Shown one piece after another: positions 22,629 to 32,982 of a DNA stretch of 64,000 nucleotides. The notes under the pieces were generated by a model that worked only from the letters and a program-made list of their open reading frames with translations, did not search any database and was not told the DNA's origin. Source of the DNA: Spartobacteria bacterium (lineage in GTDB: Bacteria; Verrucomicrobiota; Verrucomicrobiia; Chthoniobacterales; UBA10450); the NCBI GenBank assembly GCA_003134785.1, contig PLCN01000002.1, positions 434,219 to 498,218 on the forward strand. The letters run 5' to 3'. Each line of letters opens with the position of its first letter. Position 1 is the stretch's first letter. Made by a program: the position numbers and the translations under genes.

Positions 22629-23942
22629 CTACAAAATAATTTCCTCGCCCTCGCGAGCGGCGGTCACGATCAGTTTCCCGCCATGCTGCGCAACTTCGCG
22701 CTGCGCGCGCTCGGCCATGGCTGCGATCTTTTCATCGGTGTGATCGGGATCGTGATGGAAGAGAACAAGCCGCTTGGCGCCGGCTCGCATCGCGAGTTGC
22801 ACCGTGTCGTCGGCGCAAGTGTGGCCCCAGCCGCGGCGCGAGGGATATTCGATCGCGTCGTATTGTGAATCGGCGATGATGAGATCGGCGCCGCGGAGGA
22901 ACTCGACCACTTTCTCATCCTGGATCCGCGCATAAGCCAAACCATCGGGCGACGTCTGGCGTTCGGCCTTCTGGCGTTCGATTTCGCAACGTTCGTAGGC
23001 TTCGTGGTCCGGCATGAAAACGATGTCGCCGCTCGGCGTGGAAAGCCGGTAGCCGAGACAAATGCCCGGATGGTTAGCGAACATGGTTCGCACTTTGACC
23101 ACGCCGAGATTGAATTGCATGTCGGTCAACTCCTCGAACGTAAGGTGCGTCGCCATCTGATTGAGACCGACGGGAAAGAAAGCGGTCTGCATTTGTTCGA
23201 AGAGCGCGCCGCGCAATCCATGAACGGCGCCTTCGTAACCGAGGACGCGAATATTGACCTTCGGATGATACGCCGGAATGAAGAAAGGAAATCCCTGGAT
23301 GTGATCCCAGTGCGTGTGGGTGACGAGAATCAGGACGTTGAGTCCCGTGGTCGAGACCTCCTTCATGAGCGATTGCCCGAGGCGGCGAATGCCTGACCCG
23401 GCGTCCATGATGATGATTTGATTGCCCACGCGAATCTCGACGCACGAAGTGTTGCCGCCGTAAACGGAAGTATCGCGGCCCGGGGTGGGGATGGAACCGC
23501 GGACGCCCCAGAATCGGATCAAGGTGGGCCCGGCGACCACATTTTCTTCCGCTATCGGCTCGACGGCGGCCGCTTCGCCATTGTCGCGGCAAACGGCCAT
23601 GGTGCGAATGAGATCGGGCGGCGCGATGGGCTTGATGAGATAATCGTCCGCGCCGGCGGCGAACGCGGTTTCGCGGTCGTTGGCGAAACGGCTGACCGTC
23701 GTCAAAATCACGCGGGTCGGCTGAAGCGAAGGTTGCTCGCGAATCCAGCGGCAGACCTGGAAGCCGTTACGTTTCGGCGTGCGAAGATCACAAACCACGG
23801 CAGCCGGTTTGTTTTGCAGAATGAGATCGAGGCCGGCCTGTCCGTCCGCGGCTTCGAGCACGCGCCACTCTTGTCCGGCGAGACATTGGGCGATGAGCGC
23901 GCGCGTCAACGCATCGCTGTCGATCAGAACGAGCGTTTTCAT
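22629..23942 (-). CDS. Receiver domain fused to metallo-beta-lactamase-fold hydrolase
   Basis: The 437 residues combine a CheY-like receiver (about 1-120: acidic pair Asp8/Asp10, phosphoacceptor Asp52 in VVCDLRTPK, Lys in DDYLIKP) with an MBL-fold domain (about 145-437) carrying the zinc motif THTHWDH, a later ADSQYDA and FHHDPDHTD. The hydrolase starts with FWGVRGSIPTPG, the opening seen in MBL proteins related to phosphodiesterase-type enzymes. Phosphorylation probably gates hydrolysis of an unknown substrate, possibly a signalling nucleotide. It is the last gene of the GTPase operon and overlaps the kinase-like gene by four bases. The start at 23942 gives a canonical receiver N-terminus. 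Confidence 0.87.
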   Translation of the reverse strand: MKTLVLIDSDALTRALIAQCLAGQEWRVLEAADGQAGLDLILQNKPAAVVCDLRTPKRNGFQVCRWIREQPSLQPTRVILTTVSRFANDRETAFAAGADDYLIKPIAPPDLIRTMAVCRDNGEAAAVEPIAEENVVAGPTLIRFWGVRGSIPTPGRDTSVYGGNTSCVEIRVGNQIIIMDAGSGIRRLGQSLMKEVSTTGLNVLILVTHTHWDHIQGFPFFIPAYHPKVNIRVLGYEGAVHGLRGALFEQMQTAFFPVGLNQMATHLTFEELTDMQFNLGVVKVRTMFANHPGICLGYRLSTPSGDIVFMPDHEAYERCEIERQKAERQTSPDGLAYARIQDEKVVEFLRGADLIIADSQYDAIEYPSRRGWGHTCADDTVQLAMRAGAKRLVLFHHDPDHTDEKIAAMAERAQREVAQHGGKLIVTAAREGEEIIL

Positions 23943-25060
23943 TTCGTCGCAGCCAGGGTCGGGAGCATGATCCAGAAGGAATTGCCGCCGTCCTTCCGGG
24001 ATTCGTAACCGATTTCTCCCTCGCAATTCTCAACTGCGATCCGGCAAAACTGGAAGGGCAACTGCAAAGCTTGCGGTCCGGGCGTCGCGGTCGTTGCTCT
24101 GGAAAAAAGGTTCGCGCAAATATCCTTCGGGAAAGAGGGGCCATTGTCGGTGACACGAATCAGAATCGATCCAGATTCCTCGGCGAAATTGAGCCGAACT
24201 TCGTCGCCCGCAGGCGCGCTTTGCAAGCCATTCTCGAGCAGGGTCGACAAGACGCGGGTCAGATGCGTTGAATCCATAGCCACGCGTATTCCAGCAAGTC
24301 CATTCCCAGTGATGCTCAAGCGCACACCCTTGTCGGCGAATTGGGAAGCGACATTTTCTTCCGCCGCCAGAAGCGCATCTCCCAATTTTGCTTCGGCAAT
24401 CGCCATCCCGTTGCGCCCGCGAAGTCCTTCCAGCTCGGCGGCAAAAACATTCAGCACCTTGTTGATCAGCGTCTGTTGTTCCTCCGTCGCGCGCGAAGCT
24501 AGACTCAAGAGCTGCGCGATTTGCGCCGGATTTTTTTCCATCTCAATCAGCCGCAGAGAGGTGATGACGTTCGCGAGGGCGGCGTTCATTTCCTCGGAGA
24601 TGCAGTTCAACAGAATTTCCTTCTTCTGCATTTCGGAATTCAGCCGCTGATAAGCGATCACGGTCTCTCGCGCCTTTTGCAGCATCGATTTTTTCGCTTC
24701 GAAAATTTCGCCGAGCCGTTCCAGCAGCAAGATTGCCTGACCTCCGGCGGTAAGCGCGGTGGCTTCCAGGGAAAGCTCGATTCCATCCGCGGCTTGCTCG
24801 ACCCAGGGACCTGATCGGGCGCGCTTCTCTCCACCCGCGCTCCAGCATCCGCCGGCATCGACCAGAAAATTTTCCAAAAAGGGCGACGCGTGATCAATCG
24901 GCAAAGACGCGGCGGATGCGACGTCCGGCCAAATCGAGCGCAGCCAATCCGGCGGCGTTCCGCTGAGCCGTAGCGCGCCTGATTTGTCGCGAACAAAAAC
25001 GGCGAACCCGAGCGCTTCGAGGACAGCGCCGGCCGGAGAATCGCGGTCGAGGTCCGGCAT
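23939..25060 (-). CDS. Degenerate histidine-kinase-like protein (HisKA/HATPase without phosphoacceptor His)
   Basis: A 373-residue protein with a PAS-like N-terminal part (about 10-115), a dimerisation-helix pair (about 140-205) and a HATPase_c-like domain (about 260-372). Where kinases have S-H-E-L-R-T-P-L this protein reads SEEMNAAL (155-162), so the phosphorylated His is replaced by Glu156. The N-box (LLENGL) and the DNG of the G1 box remain, but the glycine-rich G2 lid is replaced by PQALQLPF. It is therefore probably not an ordinary kinase; it may bind nucleotide and act as a scaffold or sensor. It sits two bases after the GTPase gene and overlaps the receiver/MBL gene, its presumed partner. 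Confidence 0.85.
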   Translation of the reverse strand: MPDLDRDSPAGAVLEALGFAVFVRDKSGALRLSGTPPDWLRSIWPDVASAASLPIDHASPFLENFLVDAGGCWSAGGEKRARSGPWVEQAADGIELSLEATALTAGGQAILLLERLGEIFEAKKSMLQKARETVIAYQRLNSEMQKKEILLNCISEEMNAALANVITSLRLIEMEKNPAQIAQLLSLASRATEEQQTLINKVLNVFAAELEGLRGRNGMAIAEAKLGDALLAAEENVASQFADKGVRLSITGNGLAGIRVAMDSTHLTRVLSTLLENGLQSAPAGDEVRLNFAEESGSILIRVTDNGPSFPKDICANLFSRATTATPGPQALQLPFQFCRIAVENCEGEIGYESRKDGGNSFWIMLPTLAATK

Positions 25061-25062
25061 GC

Positions 25063-25563
25063 TTATTTGGACTGCGTCATCATTCGGCCCAGTTCGATAA
25101 AAGCCTCCTCGACGCCGGCACCTTCTTTCGCGCTCGTCTTGAACGATCTCCATCCGCGCGCCGACAGACTGTCCGTCCGTGCCTCATCGATCTCCCACTG
25201 GGGCGCGAGGTCGGCCTTGTTCAGCGCCAGCAGAAATGGCAACGGACCGATCGCCGCCACCACACGTCCCTGAATCTCAATCGCCTGATCGAGCGTGATC
25301 TGGCGCGTTCCATCCGCGACGAGCAAATAACCGCTGGTGCCGCGGAGGTAGGACGTTTGCAGCCGCTGATAATCGTCATCCCCCTCCAGATCCCAAATCA
25401 TCAGCATCACCTCCGAGCCATCGACCGACACGGTTTTCTTATCGATCTTCACGCCGACCGTGGTCAGGTATTTATCGGAGAACATGCTGTGCACGAATTT
25501 CGCGATGAGGCTGGTCTTCCCCACGCCCGACGCTCCGATCATGCAGATTTTTTTCTGAATCAT
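25063..25563 (-). CDS. Rab/Ras-like small GTPase
   Basis: A 166-residue single-domain GTPase with G1 GASGVGKTS (residues 10-18), switch I region containing TTVGV, G3 WDLEGDD, G4 NKAD and G5 TSAKEG. It lacks lipid-modification or membrane segments. The residue after the G3 glycine, where Ras has catalytic Gln61, is Asp, so intrinsic hydrolysis may be slow or depend on a partner. It overlaps the end of the OmpA-like gene as ATGA and is followed after two bases by the kinase-like gene, so expression is tightly linked. A switch controlling the envelope-spanning OmpA protein is inferred. Confidence 0.92.
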   Translation of the reverse strand: MIQKKICMIGASGVGKTSLIAKFVHSMFSDKYLTTVGVKIDKKTVSVDGSEVMLMIWDLEGDDDYQRLQTSYLRGTSGYLLVADGTRQITLDQAIEIQGRVVAAIGPLPFLLALNKADLAPQWEIDEARTDSLSARGWRSFKTSAKEGAGVEEAFIELGRMMTQSK

Positions 25564-27488
25564 GGCGAGGTGGTTGAACTCTGGGTCACCACCGTGAAAG
25601 CGACGCGCCGGTCCGATTGTTCCGCGGCCGCTTTGTCGCTCGCGGCTGGCTTGAATGGTTGTTCAATTCCAACCGGCTTGAATTGCGCCGCCGGGAAACC
25701 ACACGAAACGAGAAAATCGCGCACCTTATTCGCGCGCCGCTGTCGCAGATCGGCATTCTTGGCTTCGCTGCCAACAGCGTCCGCGTATCCATGGATCTCG
25801 AGGGTCAGGGCCATTCCGAGTTGTTTCGCCGCATTTTCGCAGCGGCGAATCTCGTCCGGCAGACGCGATAAAGCGGCAAAACCTTCCGTCGCGATGTCGT
25901 CCTTGTTCGTCAGGAAATAGACAAAGGCCGATTCAATAATAGACCGGGACTGCTCGAAGGCGCGCTGATCGAGATCGATCACAGCGCGATCGTCGATGGA
26001 CGTGATGCCGGGAACCTTCGCGCCTTCGGCGCGGACTCGCGTCAACCACCGATGCGATGCTTCGCCGGAAAGCGTAAGGGCGCCGTCGACCGCCACAGCG
26101 TTTACCGAATCGGGCAAAGTAAATCGCGTTTCGAAGCGCTTCCGGGCCAAATCCGGATCGTAAATTATTTTCGCGTCGCGCTCGACAATGGACGTTACGC
26201 CGGGAATGAGCGTCGCTTCGCGCTGGACCTGTTCCAGCCACGCGTAGGGAACGGAGCCCGACAGCGCCAGCACACCATCGTTGAGCGCAATCCTGGTCTC
26301 AGTCGGAACGCTAAATCGTTGCTCGAAACGCCGCCGCACGCTGGCCGGATCGAGCGCTAGAAATTCCTTCCAGTGAAAGCGGATGCGACTCGGATCAAGA
26401 TTCGCCTCGCGCGAGAGTGTCGCGGGATCCGCTGAGGAAGCGTCGCGCAACCCACTCACCTGTGAGGAAGAAAACCATCGGTGCTGGGCGTCAGTCACCA
26501 CAATTCCCGGTTGAGACTTGAGTCGCCCGAGGAAGTTTTTCCACTTCGATTTGCTCTGCGCGGCCAGGATTAGGCCGAAAATTGCGACCGCCGCGATGGC
26601 CAGCAACATGAGCCACGCGCGAGTTGGTCGTCCGCGCTTCTCCGTGTTGTATTGGGCCTGAAGGCATGACTCCAGTTCCGGCCGGAGAGTCTCGAAAACG
26701 GCGGTGTCTCCCTGAAAAAACGTCAGCGCCGAGCCCTTCAATATATGAATGCTTTCGATTGCGTCCTCGAGCGTCGAACGGAGTTCGCGGGACGGATTCC
26801 CGCGGATGACGGCGGCGAGGTAGGCCGCGCGGCCGGGCGCGATCCACACCTGCAATTCGCCCACGCGAAATTCCTCCAGCGCTGAATCTTCGCCGGCTTC
26901 GAATGAATCTCGCGCGAAATCCTGAATCGCGCTCAGCATTCCCGCCACCATGTCTGAATCCTTGCTCACCGCTGAGTCGGCCGCGACGTGAAGCAGCGCG
27001 AGGCTCGTCTCGCGATGAATGAGGAACAGCTGCTCGACGCGATAGACCAAACTCCGCAGCATCACGACTTCCGCGAAAGTCTTACCGGTCCGCAACGCCT
27101 CGAAGCGCCATTTCAAGCCCCGCCACGAAAAAGTGTGCTCGAGCGTCTGGTTTAGCGATTGGAGCAAACGCCGCAGACTCTCCGCGATCGATCTTCGCAC
27201 GATCGGCCCTATGATCGGGTGCAGCGCATCGACAAAAACCTGCGGCCTCTGATCGATCGAATCCTTAATTGAGCCTTCCACCGCCGGCTGCAAGGCGTGC
27301 GTCAGCTCCTCGCCCCGCTCCCGGCTCATCTTGATCGCCTCGGGCAAAACGCCCGCGACGTCCTGCGAGCGGCGTTCCTTGTCGGAAACGCGGTCGGTCA
27401 ATTCGCGCAGTTGGGCCCGCTCCCGGCTCAAGAGCAGGCGGCGAAGTTCTTCGAACTCCGTGATTGGATCGCGAGCGGACCGGTGCAT
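25560..27488 (-). CDS. Envelope-spanning OmpA-family protein with cytoplasmic GTPase-partner-like region and BON-like repeats
   Basis: A 642-residue single-pass protein. Residues 1-290 are cytoplasmic by prediction and contain the conserved-looking stretch RGLKWRFEALRTGKTFAEVVMLRSLVYRVEQLF in part (123-155) and a segment 178-275 whose pattern (GMLSAIQDFARDSF, then WIAPGRAAYLAAVIRG) recalls longin/roadblock-type regulators of small GTPases. A membrane helix spans 291-310. Two BON-like units (about 380-440 and 450-505) precede an OmpA/MotB peptidoglycan-binding domain (515-636, EIHGYADAVGS and RRANKVRDFL). It could link a cytoplasmic GTPase to the cell wall. The preceding coiled-coil gene ends 14 bases upstream and the GTPase gene overlaps its stop. 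Confidence 0.85.
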   Translation of the reverse strand: MHRSARDPITEFEELRRLLLSRERAQLRELTDRVSDKERRSQDVAGVLPEAIKMSRERGEELTHALQPAVEGSIKDSIDQRPQVFVDALHPIIGPIVRRSIAESLRRLLQSLNQTLEHTFSWRGLKWRFEALRTGKTFAEVVMLRSLVYRVEQLFLIHRETSLALLHVAADSAVSKDSDMVAGMLSAIQDFARDSFEAGEDSALEEFRVGELQVWIAPGRAAYLAAVIRGNPSRELRSTLEDAIESIHILKGSALTFFQGDTAVFETLRPELESCLQAQYNTEKRGRPTRAWLMLLAIAAVAIFGLILAAQSKSKWKNFLGRLKSQPGIVVTDAQHRWFSSSQVSGLRDASSADPATLSREANLDPSRIRFHWKEFLALDPASVRRRFEQRFSVPTETRIALNDGVLALSGSVPYAWLEQVQREATLIPGVTSIVERDAKIIYDPDLARKRFETRFTLPDSVNAVAVDGALTLSGEASHRWLTRVRAEGAKVPGITSIDDRAVIDLDQRAFEQSRSIIESAFVYFLTNKDDIATEGFAALSRLPDEIRRCENAAKQLGMALTLEIHGYADAVGSEAKNADLRQRRANKVRDFLVSCGFPAAQFKPVGIEQPFKPAASDKAAAEQSDRRVAFTVVTQSSTTSP

Positions 27489-27502
27489 GCGCGGTCGCCC
27501 GA

Positions 27503-28084
27503 CTACGCTCCCGGCACGTGAAACTCGTTCTTCAAGCGCAGCGCCACTTCGCTCAACATCTCCGCCAGCGCTTCGCGACCAGTCATCGCTCCGCGAATCT
27601 GCTCCGCCTCGCGACCCAGGTCTGCCTGTACCTGGCCGTGCTTCTCCCGAATCTCGTCGCTCAACGCTTTCGATTGATCGAGAAGCTGCTGGCGCAAAGC
27701 GTGAATTTCGCCGCCCGTGTGTTCGCCGAGATTCTTCGTCGCCAGCTCGAGTGTCCTGGCCGTTTCGCCGAGGTCGCGCGTCAGTTTTTCAATGGCGTTC
27801 CCGCGCTCCGATTGTTCGGTGTTCAGCCGATTCGAAACCGATTCCAGCGCGCCTTTCAAAAAATTCTCCAAGGCCTCGAGACGCTTCTGCATATCGGCGC
27901 GGGCATCGGTAGCTTCGCGAGTCAGCCGTTCGTCCAGCCGCTGAAAGCGCCCGTCGTAATCGCGCATCTGCGAACCGAAAAGGATGTCTCGAATCCGGTC
28001 CACTTTGCCGCTTTCGTCGATCCCGCCGTTGCGGTTCTCGCCGTCTTCCTGTCTGTTTGGTTCGTGAACTTCTTCAGCGTTCAT
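27503..28084 (-). CDS. Coiled-coil protein of the GTPase/OmpA operon
   Basis: A 193-residue soluble, highly charged protein, mostly heptad-patterned coiled coil from about residue 40 to 180, with a recognisable N-terminal motif KVDRIRDILFGSQMRDYDGR (26-45). I have seen that motif next to OmpA-family and small-GTPase genes in other phyla, which suggests a conserved partnership, but no function is established. It is the first gene of the five-gene operon. The start at 28084 is supported by AAGGA nine bases upstream. It diverges from the cyclic-nucleotide/ferredoxin gene across 179 bases. Confidence 0.8.
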   Translation of the reverse strand: MNAEEVHEPNRQEDGENRNGGIDESGKVDRIRDILFGSQMRDYDGRFQRLDERLTREATDARADMQKRLEALENFLKGALESVSNRLNTEQSERGNAIEKLTRDLGETARTLELATKNLGEHTGGEIHALRQQLLDQSKALSDEIREKHGQVQADLGREAEQIRGAMTGREALAEMLSEVALRLKNEFHVPGA

Positions 28085-28263
28085 GTTGGTAGTTCCTTCG
28101 CTTCGAATTTGCAGCGGCGTTTTCGAAAACCGCTCATGCGCCGACGTATAACATTCCGCGCGTCGCAGTAGCAAGCTCGGAACCTGGGTCGATCAAGCGG
28201 CAACGCCACCACGTTAAAATGCTTCCACCGGAAAGGGCGCGTTGAGTATCATCCCGGCGCGCG

Positions 28264-29943
28264 ATGGACGAAACAGCCGGGAAGCTTACTTCGGGGGAGC
28301 CGCTCAGTGTCGATCAGTTGATCGAGTTCTTGCCGGCGTTGAAGGAAGTCGCGCGCGGGCAACTCGACAACTGGGCGAAAGGTGCGGCCGTGCTCCATCG
28401 CTATCGAAAAGGCGAAACGGTCTGCACTGAGGGCGAGTTCGGCTCGACCGCCTATTACATCGTCTCAGGCACGGTCGATATTTCCATCAACAATCCGATG
28501 GCTCATTTGCGCACGAGGCCCGGCTGGGGATTCTTCGGACGCAGCGTCGCGCGGATGAAAAGTTTTTTGGTGGACGATGGCCAGGACAAGCGCGCGGAAG
28601 CGCACGAGCGCAAGTTCATCGGGATCGATGCGAACGTCGATTTGCCGATGAACAAGCCGATCGCGCAGCTCGGCGCCGGTGAGCTTTTCGGCGAAATGAC
28701 CTGCCGCACTTTCCAACCGCGCTCGGCCACGGTCATGACACGCGAACCGTGCGTCATGGTGGAAATGCTGCGCGTGATTCTCGACATGCTCGTCGGCAAT
28801 CGCCAGGTCTCCGATGCATCGAAAGCGACTTCGAAAGTGAAGGCTCCCACGTTCAAAGGGACTTCCTTCAAAGTGGAGATGGAGAAAAAATATCGCGAGC
28901 GCTCGCTCGAGACGCATCTCCGGAGTGTCCCGCTTTTCGCGACAGTCGGCGACGAGTTCATCGCTTATCTCAAAGAGAAGGTCGAGCTGGTCTCGTACAA
29001 TCAGAACCAGGTCATCTGCAAAGAAGGCGAGGAAGCAGACGCGTTTTACCTGATCCGATCCGGAATGGTCCGCGTCTCGCAATCGATGCCGGGCGGCGAA
29101 ATGGTCCGGACTTATTTGAGCCGCGGAGATTTTTTCGGCGAGATCGGATTGCTGCGTTCGATCAAGCGCATCGCGACCTGTGCCGCGCTCGATGCGGTGG
29201 ACGTGGTGAAAATTCCCGGGACGGAGTTCAATTTCATGCTCGAGAAATTCCCCGGGGTGCGCGCTCAGCTCGAGCCGGTGGCCGAGGCCCGCATGGCGGC
29301 GACCAAAGCGCGCACGGTACCGCCGGGGCTCGGGCTCGATGATTTTCTGAACCAGGGATTATTCGAGGCGCAAAATCTTCTGCTTATCGATCTGGATAAC
29401 TGCACGCGCTGCGATGCGTGCGTGCAGGCTTGCGCAAAGGCGCACGACGGTGTCTCGCGTCTCCTGCGTGATGGTTTGCGCTACGATCATTTTCTCGTCG
29501 CGACGGCCTGCCGCTCCTGCCGCGATCCGCTTTGCATGACGCAGTGCCCGGTCGGCTCGATTCGCCGCAAGGAAAACCTCGAGATCATCATCGAGGATTG
29601 GTGCATCGGCTGCGGCAAGTGCGCGGAGCTTTGCCCGTACGGCAACATCAACATGCACCCGCTCGAAGTGGTCAAGGAAGTGAAGACGGAGATCAAATCG
29701 GCTAATCCGAACATTCCGCCCACGGTCAAGATCGAGAAGAAAAAATCGACCACCTACAAAGCGAACACTTGCGATCTCTGCACGCAATTATCTGTGCCGA
29801 GCTGCGTTTATGCCTGTCCGCATGACGCCGCGAAGCGCGTCGATCCCCAGCGATTTTTCGGCGATGTGCTGGAGGCGCAGGCGGAGATTTTGAAGACCAG
29901 TTGGGCGCCGGAGAGGCGCTTCGAATCACACACCACGCACTGA
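28264..29943 (+). CDS. Tandem cyclic-nucleotide-binding domains fused to a four-cluster ferredoxin
   Basis: The 559 residues hold two cNMP-binding domains followed by an iron-sulfur module. The first binding domain (about 15-185) has a long insertion before its phosphate cassette LFGEMTCRTFQPRSAT; the second (about 210-350) reads FFGEIGLLRSIKRIAT. Both keep the Arg that contacts the cyclic phosphate. The ferredoxin (about 370-540) has four Cys groups in the NrfC/HybA pattern: CTRCDACVQAC, CRSCRDPLCMTQC, CIGCGKCAELC and CDLCTQ...CVYAC. No signal peptide is present, so it is cytoplasmic. It heads an operon with a cytochrome-b-like protein and a decaheme cytochrome. Control of electron flow by cAMP or cGMP is the natural inference. 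Confidence 0.92.
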   Translation: MDETAGKLTSGEPLSVDQLIEFLPALKEVARGQLDNWAKGAAVLHRYRKGETVCTEGEFGSTAYYIVSGTVDISINNPMAHLRTRPGWGFFGRSVARMKSFLVDDGQDKRAEAHERKFIGIDANVDLPMNKPIAQLGAGELFGEMTCRTFQPRSATVMTREPCVMVEMLRVILDMLVGNRQVSDASKATSKVKAPTFKGTSFKVEMEKKYRERSLETHLRSVPLFATVGDEFIAYLKEKVELVSYNQNQVICKEGEEADAFYLIRSGMVRVSQSMPGGEMVRTYLSRGDFFGEIGLLRSIKRIATCAALDAVDVVKIPGTEFNFMLEKFPGVRAQLEPVAEARMAATKARTVPPGLGLDDFLNQGLFEAQNLLLIDLDNCTRCDACVQACAKAHDGVSRLLRDGLRYDHFLVATACRSCRDPLCMTQCPVGSIRRKENLEIIIEDWCIGCGKCAELCPYGNINMHPLEVVKEVKTEIKSANPNIPPTVKIEKKKSTTYKANTCDLCTQLSVPSCVYACPHDAAKRVDPQRFFGDVLEAQAEILKTSWAPERRFESHTTH

Positions 29944-30011: not shown

Positions 30012-31388
30012 ATGCGGATCACTAACTGGAAACACTTTCCCTGGTTTGTTTTTGTTTGTCTCGCCACGGTGGCGGCTTGCCTGCTCTACATCGGGAATTT
30101 TCACCCGCAGCGGATGCCGGCCGGGATTCGTTTGCCGCCATCGCTGATCCAAACCCCGACCGAACATCACACCGTGGGCGGCACTCCGCTCGGGTTGGCC
30201 TTCGGCGCGATCTCGCTTGGGATTTTTGTTTTCGCCGCGCTCCTGAGTCTGCGAAAGAAAATTCCGCTGTGGCGCGTAGGCACCGTGCAGCGGTGGTTGC
30301 GCGCTCACATCTGGCTCACGTTCCTCACCGTCCCGCTCGTTATTTTGCACAGCGGTTTTCGATGGGGCGGACCGATGACCACGCTGCTGATGGGGCTTTA
30401 CGCTGTGGTGATGGTGAGCGGGATTTACGGACTCGTGCTTCAGCATCTCATGCCGCGGCTGATGAAGGAGCGGCTGCCGGCCGAGACGGTCTTCGAACAG
30501 ATTCCGCATATCCGCGCCCAGCTTTGCGTGGCCGCGGAAAAAATGCGCGATTCGTTCAAGCCAGCTCCGCCAAAAAAACCGGACGCGGGCGCGCCCGCTC
30601 CAAGTCCGGCGAAGGCAGTAACGGCGGGTTCCGCGGTGATGGCTTCGACGAAAGGCGAGCTGAGCACGCCGACAGCTCGCGCGAAATCGGTTACCGGTTC
30701 CACCGTGACCGCGCAGCCGGTGGCGGCCGCCGCGGCAATTACAACCGCGGCTCCAGCGGCAAAGGCCGTCGAAGTTTCTTCCGAACCGGCGATCCCTTCC
30801 GCGGCGAATGCCGCCGCATCTTCAGCTCCGGCGAAACCTGCTGAAACAATCGGCACGCCGACGGCGCGGGTGCAAAGCGAACCGCCGGGCGCTTCCGTTC
30901 CGCGTGCGTCGGTCCCGGCTGGCGACGAACCTGCGCCAAAAACCGCCGAGCCCGCGGAAATAAAACCGGCTGCTCCTGCTGCCGCGAAGCCCCCGACTCC
31001 GACTGCGGCAAAACCTGCGGCCGCGAAACCGGCAGCGGCCGCGAAACCTGCTGCGCCGCCACCGGACCCAGCATCGGAAGCAGCGTTGGTCGAATTCATC
31101 GATCGCCAAATTCTTCCCTATCTCCGGGCGGGCCGCGGCGAGAAGTTCCGTCTCGGAAATCCACGCTTTTCCGACGACACGTTCCGATTCGTGAAACTGC
31201 GCGTATCGGAAACCTACCGCAGCCGGGTCGAAGAAATCCAGGGGTGGTGCGACGAGCGGCGCATTCTCGACTTACAAACGCGTCTCCAGCATTGGCTCCA
31301 CGGCTGGCTTTTTATTCACGTGCCGTTTTCGTTTTTGCTCCTGCTCCTCACGTTCTGGCACGCCTACGTGACGCTTTTTTATTATTAA
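30012..31388 (+). CDS. Cytochrome-b-like membrane protein with Ala/Pro-rich linker
   Basis: A 458-residue membrane protein. Four helices (about 10-28, 55-76, 92-112, 117-138) precede a 200-residue Ala/Pro/Lys low-complexity linker (about 180-360), a small folded segment and a fifth helix near the C-terminus (about 425-455). Membrane-embedded histidines (AHIWLTF, VILHSGF, LHGWLFIH, FWHAY) suit b-heme ligation, but no family was identified with certainty. The start at 30012 is chosen because upstream codons are the ATTTTCGATT repeat. It would carry electrons between the cytoplasmic ferredoxin and the periplasmic decaheme protein encoded on either side. Confidence 0.75.
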   Translation: MRITNWKHFPWFVFVCLATVAACLLYIGNFHPQRMPAGIRLPPSLIQTPTEHHTVGGTPLGLAFGAISLGIFVFAALLSLRKKIPLWRVGTVQRWLRAHIWLTFLTVPLVILHSGFRWGGPMTTLLMGLYAVVMVSGIYGLVLQHLMPRLMKERLPAETVFEQIPHIRAQLCVAAEKMRDSFKPAPPKKPDAGAPAPSPAKAVTAGSAVMASTKGELSTPTARAKSVTGSTVTAQPVAAAAAITTAAPAAKAVEVSSEPAIPSAANAAASSAPAKPAETIGTPTARVQSEPPGASVPRASVPAGDEPAPKTAEPAEIKPAAPAAAKPPTPTAAKPAAAKPAAAAKPAAPPPDPASEAALVEFIDRQILPYLRAGRGEKFRLGNPRFSDDTFRFVKLRVSETYRSRVEEIQGWCDERRILDLQTRLQHWLHGWLFIHVPFSFLLLLLTFWHAYVTLFYY

Positions 31389-31404
31389 ACTTCCAATGTC
31401 TCCG

Positions 31405-31477
31405 TTCGTAGTCGTGCTCCTGCTCTTGATCGAAGCGATTAACGCAGACCGAGTGCGAGCAGGAGCACGATTACGAA
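31405..31477. repeat. Inverted repeat, family C, no ORF
   Basis: Arms TTCGTAGTCGTGCTCCTGCT and GAGCAGGAGCACGATTACGAA flank about 30 bases. The element lies inside the cytochrome operon, 24 bases before the decaheme start codon. Confidence 0.85.
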
Positions 31478-31500
31478 CGAGGCAGAAGCCTCGCTGAGCC

Positions 31501-32982
31501 ATGGCCACGCCCGGACGCACCCAAAAACAGATCGCCGAGCGCTACAAAGGCAATCTCGGTTATTACAAGCGCAAGCATCCCTGGCGCGTCGCGCGCTGGT
31601 GCGTCAGTTTCCTCGCGATCGCAGGCGGCGTCGCAGGCATCATTCTTTTTCAGAAACGCGGGAACGAAGAATTTTTCAGCTCCGGCAAAATTTCGAGCAA
31701 TCACGCAACTTTCGCGCAGGATTGCGCGAAGTGTCACGACAAGGGCGCCGTCCTCGGCGACGGGATGACGCTGACAAAGTTCAAGAGCGTCGTGAAGGAC
31801 CGGTTCCATCGTGGAATTGATTTCACCGCGATCGATCTCAAGTGCGAGCAGTGCCACAAACAGCACACGCTGCACGAACCGAACGTGGTCGAAAATAGCT
31901 CCTGCTCAGTCTGCCATCAGGAACACCTCGGAGCGGCGCGGATGAAACCCGTCGCGGATCTGCAGTGTGCTTCGTGTCACAACAACAGCGGCGTCATGGA
32001 AGCGTCCGCGCAAAAAGGCGCGCAGCTTCCGCCGGCGGCGTTTCATCTGCGGCCGCATCCGGCGCAACAGGTCGTTTTCGAAATGCCGCGGCCGCCGCGC
32101 GGTTACACCCAGGTCCTTTCTTCTTTCGCCGGCGATCATCCGGAGTTTCAGCTCGTGCGCGAGAAGGCGCGCGACCCTGATGTGCTCCGCTTCAATCATC
32201 AACGCCATTTCGCGACGGATATTCCGCCGGTGGAGAAGGGACGGAAGCTCGATTGCAACTACTGCCACAAGGCCGATCCCGAGGGTCGCTTCTATCAGCG
32301 GATCAGTTTCGAGGCGAACTGCCAGGCCTGTCACGCGTTGCTCTTCGACAAAAACAATCCGCAGCTCCACATCCCTCACGGCGACGTGAATCTGGTGCGG
32401 ACTTTCTTGCGCACCTTGCCGGCACAATACGGCGACTATGCGCGATCGAAGGGAAAGACCCGCGACGGCGATGTGCAGATCTTCGTCGCGGAGCAGATCA
32501 GGAAATTGAGGGAGCAATTTCACACCGGAGAGGAGCTGGAGCGCGCCGTGTTTTTCGAAAAGGATCCTTACAGACCACAGCGGCAGGAAGCGGCGGCGAC
32601 CAAGGCAAACTACACGGGCTGCGCTTTATGCCATGACGTGAAACCGGATCGCATCGCCACCGCCACGCTCACGAAGCCGGTGCTGGTCGATCGCTGGATG
32701 CCGCAGGCGAAATTCAATCACGCGAAACATCAAGTGGATCCGATCACATCCGAAAAGTTGGATTGCAATAGGTGCCATCGAGCGCTGGTGAGTCACGAGA
32801 CCTCGGATGTGCTCATGCCGGCGAGGGCGGATTGCGTGACGTGTCACAGTCCGAAAGGGAAGGTCGTTTCTGAATGCATCACGTGTCATGGTTACCACGC
32901 GCCGACGCAAATGGCCGCGACCGATGTGCACGCGGACGCGCGTGGCGCGTTCAAGCAGATGTTGTTAGGCAGCAATCGCTAA
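31501..32982 (+). CDS. Decaheme cytochrome c
   Basis: A periplasmic multiheme electron carrier of 493 residues anchored by one N-terminal helix (about 33-52). Ten CXXCH motifs are visible: CAKCH, CEQCH, CSVCH, CASCH, CNYCH, CQACH, CALCH, CNRCH, CVTCH and CITCH; extra histidines nearby can serve as distal ligands. Spacing is irregular, unlike MtrA/MtrC repeats, and more like c7/NrfB-type respiratory shuttles. It is the third gene after the cNMP-ferredoxin and the cytochrome-b-like protein, suggesting an electron route across the inner membrane. No outer-membrane porin partner is adjacent, so extracellular electron transfer cannot be claimed. Confidence 0.93.
   Translation: MATPGRTQKQIAERYKGNLGYYKRKHPWRVARWCVSFLAIAGGVAGIILFQKRGNEEFFSSGKISSNHATFAQDCAKCHDKGAVLGDGMTLTKFKSVVKDRFHRGIDFTAIDLKCEQCHKQHTLHEPNVVENSSCSVCHQEHLGAARMKPVADLQCASCHNNSGVMEASAQKGAQLPPAAFHLRPHPAQQVVFEMPRPPRGYTQVLSSFAGDHPEFQLVREKARDPDVLRFNHQRHFATDIPPVEKGRKLDCNYCHKADPEGRFYQRISFEANCQACHALLFDKNNPQLHIPHGDVNLVRTFLRTLPAQYGDYARSKGKTRDGDVQIFVAEQIRKLREQFHTGEELERAVFFEKDPYRPQRQEAAATKANYTGCALCHDVKPDRIATATLTKPVLVDRWMPQAKFNHAKHQVDPITSEKLDCNRCHRALVSHETSDVLMPARADCVTCHSPKGKVVSECITCHGYHAPTQMAATDVHADARGAFKQMLLGSNR

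Follow-up and report, generated by a model that had tools for sequence, protein, structure and literature searches.

In a soil Verrucomicrobium, five open reading frames (ORFs), all on the minus strand, occupy positions 22629-28084 of the window (the whole stretch of 64,000 nucleotides analysed here). Their tight spacing can be read directly on the sequence, and the ORF coordinates bear out the gaps and overlaps given for five adjacent minus-strand genes in the preliminary description. From the first gene of the operon to the last they are:

27503..28084, minus strand: gene of a coiled-coil protein (193 aa), predicted to be cytoplasmic, identified as an ORF and by its conserved position; first gene of the operon
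25560..27488, minus strand: gene of a trans-envelope OmpA protein (642 aa), after a 14-base gap
25063..25563, minus strand: gene of a Rab-like GTPase of Rup type (166 aa), overlapping the OmpA gene by 4 bases
23939..25060, minus strand: gene of a kinase-like protein (373 aa), a pseudo-histidine-kinase, after a 2-base gap
22629..23942, minus strand: gene of a receiver-MBL (metallo-beta-lactamase) hydrolase (437 aa), overlapping the kinase-like gene by 4 bases; last gene of the operon

The domains called earlier for these proteins are supported by Pfam (Ras, OmpA, HATPase_c, Response_reg and Lactamase_B_2). The five-gene order is identical in six other Chthoniobacterales/Spartobacteria MAGs (L004-L009), giving seven genomes with the window, and dN/dS in comparison with the two nearest relatives is 0.06-0.20 across all five genes. 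The cluster is therefore not due to chance, and the earlier view of a genuine signalling operon is upheld. A cyclic-nucleotide-binding/4Fe-4S gene lies near the operon at 28264-29943; it was considered as a member of the system and excluded, since it adjoins the operon in only one (L004) of the six related loci. A promoter scan and an Rfam scan found nothing, and the repeats within 25560-28300 look like chance.

The GTPase matches PF00071 (Ras) with 107 bits (E = 9e-31), is soluble without a lipid anchor, and finds its nearest solved structures in Rab8, Rab1 and Rab35. Its G1 and G4 motifs read GASGVGKT and NKAD, while the G3 motif (WDLEGDD) lacks the Gln, which is missing in all 31 related GTPases; identity to cyanobacterial, rhizobial and L023 members is 37-58%. 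Rup is the prokaryotic group that has been called closest to the eukaryotic Rab/Ras/Rho/Ran GTPases (PMC4915359). As Group 1 Rup systems were already predicted in silico by Wuichet and Sogaard-Andersen in 2014 (PMC4316618), the trio of coiled-coil, OmpA and GTPase genes cannot be termed undescribed, as it had been; in that paper the conserved membrane partner of Rup was left as a domain of unknown function (PMC4316618). As far as sequence can tell, the window trio displays every feature of a Group 1 Rup system. The open-access literature on Rup with longin or OmpA, or on receiver-MBL outputs, yielded this paper and a passing citation only.

In L004-L009, in most cyanobacterial loci and on rhizobial plasmids, the coiled-coil gene is found 5' of the OmpA gene. 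The OmpA protein consists of a helical N-terminus, a longin-like domain, one hydrophobic segment, BON-like repeats and an OmpA domain, and three of these parts are located as follows:

26640..27077, minus strand: predicted longin-like domain (aa ~138-283), from AF2, Foldseek, and PF19036 in homologues
26553..26621, minus strand: probable inner-membrane segment (aa ~290-312), RAWLMLLAIAAVAIFGLILAAQ, by sequence inspection
25614..25916, minus strand: peptidoglycan-binding OmpA domain (aa 525-625), PF00691 with 35.1 bits against a cut-off of 27.2

The OmpA domain (PF00691, E = 1.7e-8) carries, by inspection, the Asp and Arg of the usual binding motif (GYAD...RRA), and a PDB sequence search with the OmpA protein gave matches confined to this domain. 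The BON-like repeats noted earlier have no Pfam BON match in the window protein, whereas a cyanobacterial homologue scores above the cut-off (33.7 versus 27 bits).

Over the longin-like region no Pfam match is found in the window protein, and a profile of the region gave nothing convincing against PDB sequences, so that the assignment as a longin draws on comparison of folds together with Pfam matches below threshold. AF2 gives the window domain a bb-a-bbb-aa core with a pLDDT of ~68-88, and a bb-a-bbb-a core is common to two AlphaFold models, one from Verrucomicrobiota and one from cyanobacteria, of proteins about 29% identical. These models were built on 8-row alignments and have a mean pLDDT of 65 and 77, with disagreement among the five models computed for the second protein (77 to 40). 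When compared with the PDB by Foldseek, the best 50 matches of each model are all of the longin/roadblock class or complexes containing such a fold, led by Mon1-Ccz1:Ypt7 (6e-4) and AP2 sigma (3e-5) and also including TRAPP, SRX, Fuzzy-Inturned, MglA-MglB and Rag roadblock chains; the best match of the first model is a MON1-type longin. The commonest weak Pfam match in the region is PF19036 (MON1/FUZ/HPS1 longin), which appears in consistent register in 6 of 37 homologues, below cut-off in every one (at best 3.8e-5, 24.3 bits versus 26.1). These models lead to the prediction that the former 'domain of unknown function' in the OmpA protein is of longin type, an assignment that is apparently new. 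In eukaryotes, it is domains of this class that bind Rab GTPases or activate them.

The trio is present in several phyla, as had been recognised at the outset: when the neighbourhoods of its homologues were checked, the genes lay side by side in Verrucomicrobiota, in cyanobacteria and on plasmids of rhizobia. The GTPase and the canonical longin-OmpA protein are confined to the same 5 of 388 genomes in the phylum sample and occur in the same 11 of 197 in the order sample, a match that is exact across both samples apart from one decayed copy. Genomes with a diverged longin have no Rup GTPase, and pairs of coiled-coil and diverged longin genes without a GTPase exist; in three genomes (G169, G325 and G470) the GTPase gene is located not beside the longin gene but elsewhere in the genome. 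The link between GTPase and OmpA protein proposed earlier is thus likely, given the genomes shared in both samples, but the longin domain that would provide the specific contact had been missed. Direct binding of the GTPase to this domain is quite probable. That the domain acts by nucleotide exchange, instead of in some other role, is a tentative proposal, just short of an even chance.

The longin fold has relatives in the roadblock, PAS and GAF folds, and the longin-like domain could therefore be a GTPase-activating, effector or scaffold platform, similar to roadblock/MglB proteins, and not an exchange factor. The MglA-MglB complex and the Rag roadblock chains among the fold matches are in line with such a role, as are the GTPase-free pairs and the finding that the roadblock protein MglB acts as a GAP for MglA (PMC2907295). 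However, both the best match of the first model and the commonest Pfam match are MON1-type longins, and Group 1 Rup GTPases lack the Gln while the output protein offers one instead, which makes this alternative possible, if somewhat doubtful.

The kinase-like protein has a PAS-like N-terminus, a Q-x-A-x-E helix, and degenerate DHp and ATPase-like domains (HATPase_c, E = 1e-13). The following features are relevant to the output arm:

24611..24712, minus strand: conserved helix with near-invariant Gln128, MLQKARETVIAYQRL, matching the invariant Gln of PMC4316618
24593..24595, minus strand: Glu156 codon at the position of the phospho-acceptor His, by alignment with His-bearing homologues
23604..23936, minus strand: atypical receiver domain (aa 3-113), with Asp52 and Lys104 kept and Ser9 as second acidic-pocket residue
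22632..23525, minus strand: metallo-beta-lactamase-fold hydrolase domain, HTHWDH and downstream metal ligands intact, PF12706 56 bits

The Gln128 column holds Gln in 23 of 24 aligned output modules. The kinase had correctly been described as without its histidine, Glu156 occupying the phospho-acceptor position in an alignment with six His-bearing homologues (L070, L072, L155, L156, L160 and L162). In the window clade this His is replaced by Glu or Asp in 8/8 kinase-like proteins, and the second Gly of G1 and the glycines of G2, both ATP-binding motifs, are lost; judged by the His and the N/G1/G2 motifs, the window protein is not a sensor histidine kinase. The pseudo-kinase clade has a single origin in the tree (support 100/100), and two related genomes (L155 and L156) retain an active histidine kinase next to the receiver-MBL protein. 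In the receiver (Response_reg, E = 1.7e-19) the alignment columns of Asp52 and Lys104 are invariant; the acidic-pocket position is Ser or Asn in 8/8 members of the window clade and Asp in both active-kinase operons and the orphan paralogue. Kinase and receiver appear to have lost catalytic or metal residues once in the window clade, yet purifying selection persists (dN/dS against the two nearest relatives 0.11-0.13 for the pseudo-kinase and 0.06-0.07 for the receiver-MBL protein), an apparently new case. In the MBL domain (Lactamase_B_2, E = 5e-15) the metal-ligand columns are invariant. An identity as RNase Z was rejected (NCBIfam TIGR02651, 67.4 bits versus a cut-off of 292.95), and among PDB sequences the single match is ElaC1 (E = 0.002), which does not point to a particular substrate; a cyclic nucleotide or other phosphodiester is a candidate, though less likely than not.

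The phosphorylation-gated hydrolase proposed earlier is unlikely within the operon, because the kinase is without its ATP-binding glycines as well as its His, and one aspartate of the Mg site is gone from the receiver. The receiver may instead be phosphorylated by acetyl phosphate or by a kinase encoded elsewhere, the pseudo-kinase merely modulating a hydrolase gated in this way. Such phosphorylation would be consistent with the invariant Asp52 and Lys104 and with the active kinase kept beside receiver-MBL in two related operons, but the operon kinase is without His and G1/G2 glycines and the second acidic residue of the receiver is lost in the same clade, and we regard it as unlikely. Since both proteins have lost catalytic residues, they could also be decaying two-component remnants, with the GTPase trio acting on another target; this is very improbable in view of the low dN/dS of both and the conserved MBL metal ligands and Gln helix. 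A chance cluster of five unrelated signalling genes, to which the three genomes with separate GTPase and longin genes might point, can be dismissed, as the order is the same in seven genomes, the trio is kept in three phyla, and the joint distribution of GTPase and longin protein over the samples of 388 and 197 genomes contradicts chance.

We propose, with a probability of roughly 0.55, that the operon encodes a signalling system of the Group 1 Rup kind whose output has been rewired, and in which a wall-tethered GTPase switch acts on a docking-controlled hydrolase. The OmpA protein would be anchored to peptidoglycan outside and cross the inner membrane once, its longin-type domain facing the cytoplasm as the platform on which the soluble Rab-like GTPase docks; the coiled-coil protein probably serves to complete this platform or to position it. 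The longin-type domain would most likely promote GTP loading, like Mon1-Ccz1 on Ypt7/Rab7, and the state of the wall or envelope would alter this loading via the peptidoglycan tether. In the output protein, the PAS-like domain together with the glutamine helix may read the GTP-bound GTPase, and Gln128 could provide the catalytic glutamine absent from G3 and so terminate the signal. The DHp/ATPase-like body of the pseudo-kinase probably holds the receiver and controls the hydrolase by docking, without phosphotransfer; for this docking output we see an even chance. Related species have an active kinase, a diguanylate cyclase, a class III cyclase or a sigma-54 activator as output. A broader proposal, possible and no stronger than that, combines a bacterial pair of Rab-like GTPase and MON1-type longin forming a wall-tethered trans-envelope receptor, which may share ancestry with eukaryotic Rab-longin pairs, with a kinase-free docking relay of pseudo-kinase and pseudo-receiver controlling a hydrolase.

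A longin-type domain in the Rup membrane partner would offer a concrete contact for GTPases without a known partner or function, and suggests that Ras-like GTPases have their partners in a single fold class (roadblock/longin), in bacteria and archaea as well as in eukaryotes. The prediction also bears on whether Rab-longin pairing is older than eukaryotic membrane traffic or has several origins. The pseudo-kinase/receiver-MBL arm may in turn represent a clean example of phosphotransfer chemistry lost in both two-component partners with selection maintained.

Compared to the Group 1 Rup systems, the window shares a GTPase without the G3 Gln (WDLEGDD), a cytoplasmic coiled-coil neighbour (27503-28084), a neighbour combining a conserved domain, a membrane helix and an OmpA domain (25560-27488), and an invariant Gln in the N-terminal region of the output protein (Gln128). 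It differs in that Verrucomicrobiota are missing from the Rup taxa listed in PMC4316618, in its output of pseudo-kinase and receiver-MBL, and in the predicted longin-like nature of the domain of unknown function. The Zorya defence proteins ZorA/ZorB were rejected, with only weak coiled-coil/OmpA overlap and no other PADLOC match. With MglA/MglB of Myxococcus xanthus the operon has in common a bacterial Ras-like GTPase, a roadblock/longin-class partner and response-regulator components; however, the window G3 keeps the Asp (WDLEG) where that of MglA type has Thr, and the part of the partner falls to a membrane protein that binds peptidoglycan. Pfam finds no MglB-type gene among the five operon genes, the only roadblock gene of the genome being on another contig (C11). 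The actinobacterial conservons (CvnA-D) likewise unite a kinase-like protein, a GTPase and a roadblock/longin-class protein in one operon, but the window operon has neither a CvnC-type gene nor a stand-alone roadblock, and its membrane sensor is the OmpA protein, while in conservons it is the kinase. By fold, the longin-like domain is matched best by Mon1-Ccz1:Ypt7/Rab7 (PDB 5ldd), in which the partner is a Rab, the window GTPase being nearest to Rabs; in contrast to the OmpA protein, Mon1-Ccz1 is a eukaryotic heterodimer on endosomes, without a membrane-spanning or wall-binding part.

The five adjoining minus-strand genes that the preliminary description had reported, separated by gaps of 14 and 2 bases or joined by two 4-base overlaps, were all found exactly so on the sequence:

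27503-28084, minus strand: coiled-coil protein
25560-27488, minus strand: OmpA protein (OmpA supported by Pfam)
25063-25563, minus strand: GTPase (supported by Pfam)
23939-25060, minus strand: kinase-like protein (HATPase_c supported by Pfam)
22629-23942, minus strand: receiver-MBL protein (receiver and MBL supported by Pfam)

A single scan of genome contigs yielded six related loci (L004-L009, Chthoniobacterales/Spartobacteria MAGs) with an identical order of all five genes and per-gene protein identities of 50-92% to the window; dN/dS between the window and its two nearest relatives is 0.06-0.20 across all five genes. The window's genome (G000; 4.39 Mb, 25 contigs) is 97% complete. Divergent from the operon lies a plus-strand gene with cyclic-nucleotide-binding and 4Fe-4S domains (28264-29943), and further on a plus-strand gene rich in CxxCH haem motifs (31501-32982); the former is 94% identical in L004, and the remaining five related loci lack it next to their operons. 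Contig C11 of the same genome carries a roadblock (MglB-type) gene (31001-31827), beside which lies a weak match to the Ras family; the two probably form an MglA/MglB pair of their own.

The trio of coiled-coil protein, OmpA protein and GTPase, accompanied by an output gene, is also present in cyanobacteria, Mesorhizobium and Rhizobium plasmids, and other Verrucomicrobiota. Among cyanobacterial loci found via the OmpA-protein domain alone, the GTPase lies within the fetched stretch in 20 of 23. In an even sample of 388 genomes of the phylum, the canonical domain (E < 1e-40) occurs in five, the only ones with a GTPase of the Rup type (E < 1e-20), and a diverged domain (E 1e-16 to 1e-6) in six more. 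No Rup GTPase is encoded in the genomes G238, G241, G278, G252, G179 and G244, which hold the diverged domain only, adjoining a coiled-coil gene; in G169, G325 and G470 it is not adjacent, being encoded elsewhere in the genome. Among 197 genomes of the order, GTPase and domain share an identical set of eleven; since sampled genomes are not independent, no p-value is claimed for the co-occurrence in either sample. The sole extra domain match (G609) is a shortened copy with no coiled coil or GTPase nearby and no Rup GTPase anywhere in the genome, probably what is left of a decaying system (L123). Presence is patchy even within the window's own genus (3/8 sampled genomes), so the parts come and go together. 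In six Verrucomicrobiota genomes of another family (L026-L031), without a Rup GTPase, a short diverged longin-like protein lacking the DSDMVAGML motif adjoins a coiled-coil gene; where the whole locus was read (L029-L031), this pair adjoins genes for an ECF-type sigma factor and a Ser/Thr kinase.

An AlphaFold2 model of OmpA-protein residues 1-300 has the core order a-bb-a-bbb-aa (block pLDDT mostly 68-88 over residues 150-280), the N-terminal 135 residues being low-confidence helix. The top 50 Foldseek matches in the PDB are longin/roadblock-class chains or complexes containing such domains, the best being Mon1-Ccz1 bound to Ypt7 (E 6e-4). A second model, of a Xenococcus domain about 29% identical to the window's, again matches this class only (AP2 sigma, 3e-5; GATOR1, CPLANE, TRAPP-Ypt1, Mon1-Ccz1, Fuzzy-Inturned, MglA-MglB). 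Sequence-level support independent of the fold models comes from PF19036, a family for the first of the longin domains in FUZ, MON1 and HPS1, which is the commonest match (6/37 homologues, in consistent register), its best score of 3.8e-5 and 24.3 bits lying below the 26.1-bit cut-off; the window's own longin-like region has no Pfam match. Because Mon1-Ccz1 and other GEFs of the longin type activate Rabs (PMC5216073), the roadblock protein MglB is a GAP (PMC2907295), and the solved structures closest to the window GTPase are Rab8/Rab1, we infer direct contact between GTPase and longin-like domain, in which the domain may act as GEF, GAP, effector or scaffold.

The output slot elsewhere holds, by Pfam, intact or hybrid kinases, GGDEF proteins, class III adenylate/guanylate cyclases (L078, L084, L088, L092) and a sigma-54 activator (L023), with probably two more of the last type judged by inspection (L157, L158). 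On Mesorhizobium and Rhizobium plasmids (L092, L093) the trio is followed by such a cyclase with the glutamine helix, a version of the system in cultured, genetically tractable hosts. The window's kinase-like protein is homologous over its whole length to small soluble kinases adjoining Rup GTPases; those of cyanobacteria (L070, L072) and of other Verrucomicrobiota (L155, L156, L160, L162) all have the histidine (H-D-M/I) and good G1/G2 motifs. In the window, L004-L009 and L159, Glu or Asp replaces this histidine and the second G1 glycine and the G2 glycines are lost; in a tree, a branch supported at 100/100 separates these eight from the others. In L155 and L156 an active-type kinase gene adjoins a receiver-MBL gene whose receiver reads EDD, the middle residue being Ser or Asn in 8/8 pseudo-kinase operons. 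The Asp is kept in an orphan receiver-MBL paralogue of the window's genome (contig C3:104181-105482; L113 8182-9510; 46% identical, canonical acidic pocket), near which no kinase-like HMM match was found. From these residues, an active kinase/receiver-MBL pair was probably ancestral, with features of phosphotransfer then lost jointly in both partners. Constraint on the pseudo-kinase nevertheless persists (dN/dS 0.11-0.13), and the MBL metal ligands are invariant in the alignment. In one genome (G559), a pseudo-kinase/receiver-MBL operon (L159) coexists with another Rup GTPase whose accompanying histidine kinase is intact (L160).

In the most likely mechanism that we infer from the observed gene order, motifs, co-occurrence and losses, and from the predicted longin fold, a peptidoglycan-tethered longin platform would load the GTPase, which the pseudo-kinase would sense through its PAS-like/Gln-helix part; this would alter docking on the receiver and thereby hydrolase output. 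As outputs elsewhere include class III cyclases, cyclic-nucleotide phosphodiesterase is a candidate MBL activity, a reasonable first assay and no more.

The Group 1 Rup GTPase systems were predicted in silico in 2014 (PMC4316618); the Rup taxa listed there do not include Verrucomicrobiota, a phylum mentioned once, for MglA. In the open-access literature no experimental work on any Rup protein was found; neither a longin assignment of the Rup membrane partner nor a pseudo-kinase/receiver-MBL output was found in the papers searched. The window operon, proposed in the preliminary description as a candidate undescribed signalling system, has every sequence-testable feature of Group 1 Rup systems: its G3 motif reads WDLEGDD, Gln being absent from G3 in 31/31 GTPases examined, and the output glutamine, Gln128 within Q-x-A-x-E, aligns in one column across 23 of 24 output modules. 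By these sequence criteria its membership of this known predicted kind is secure.
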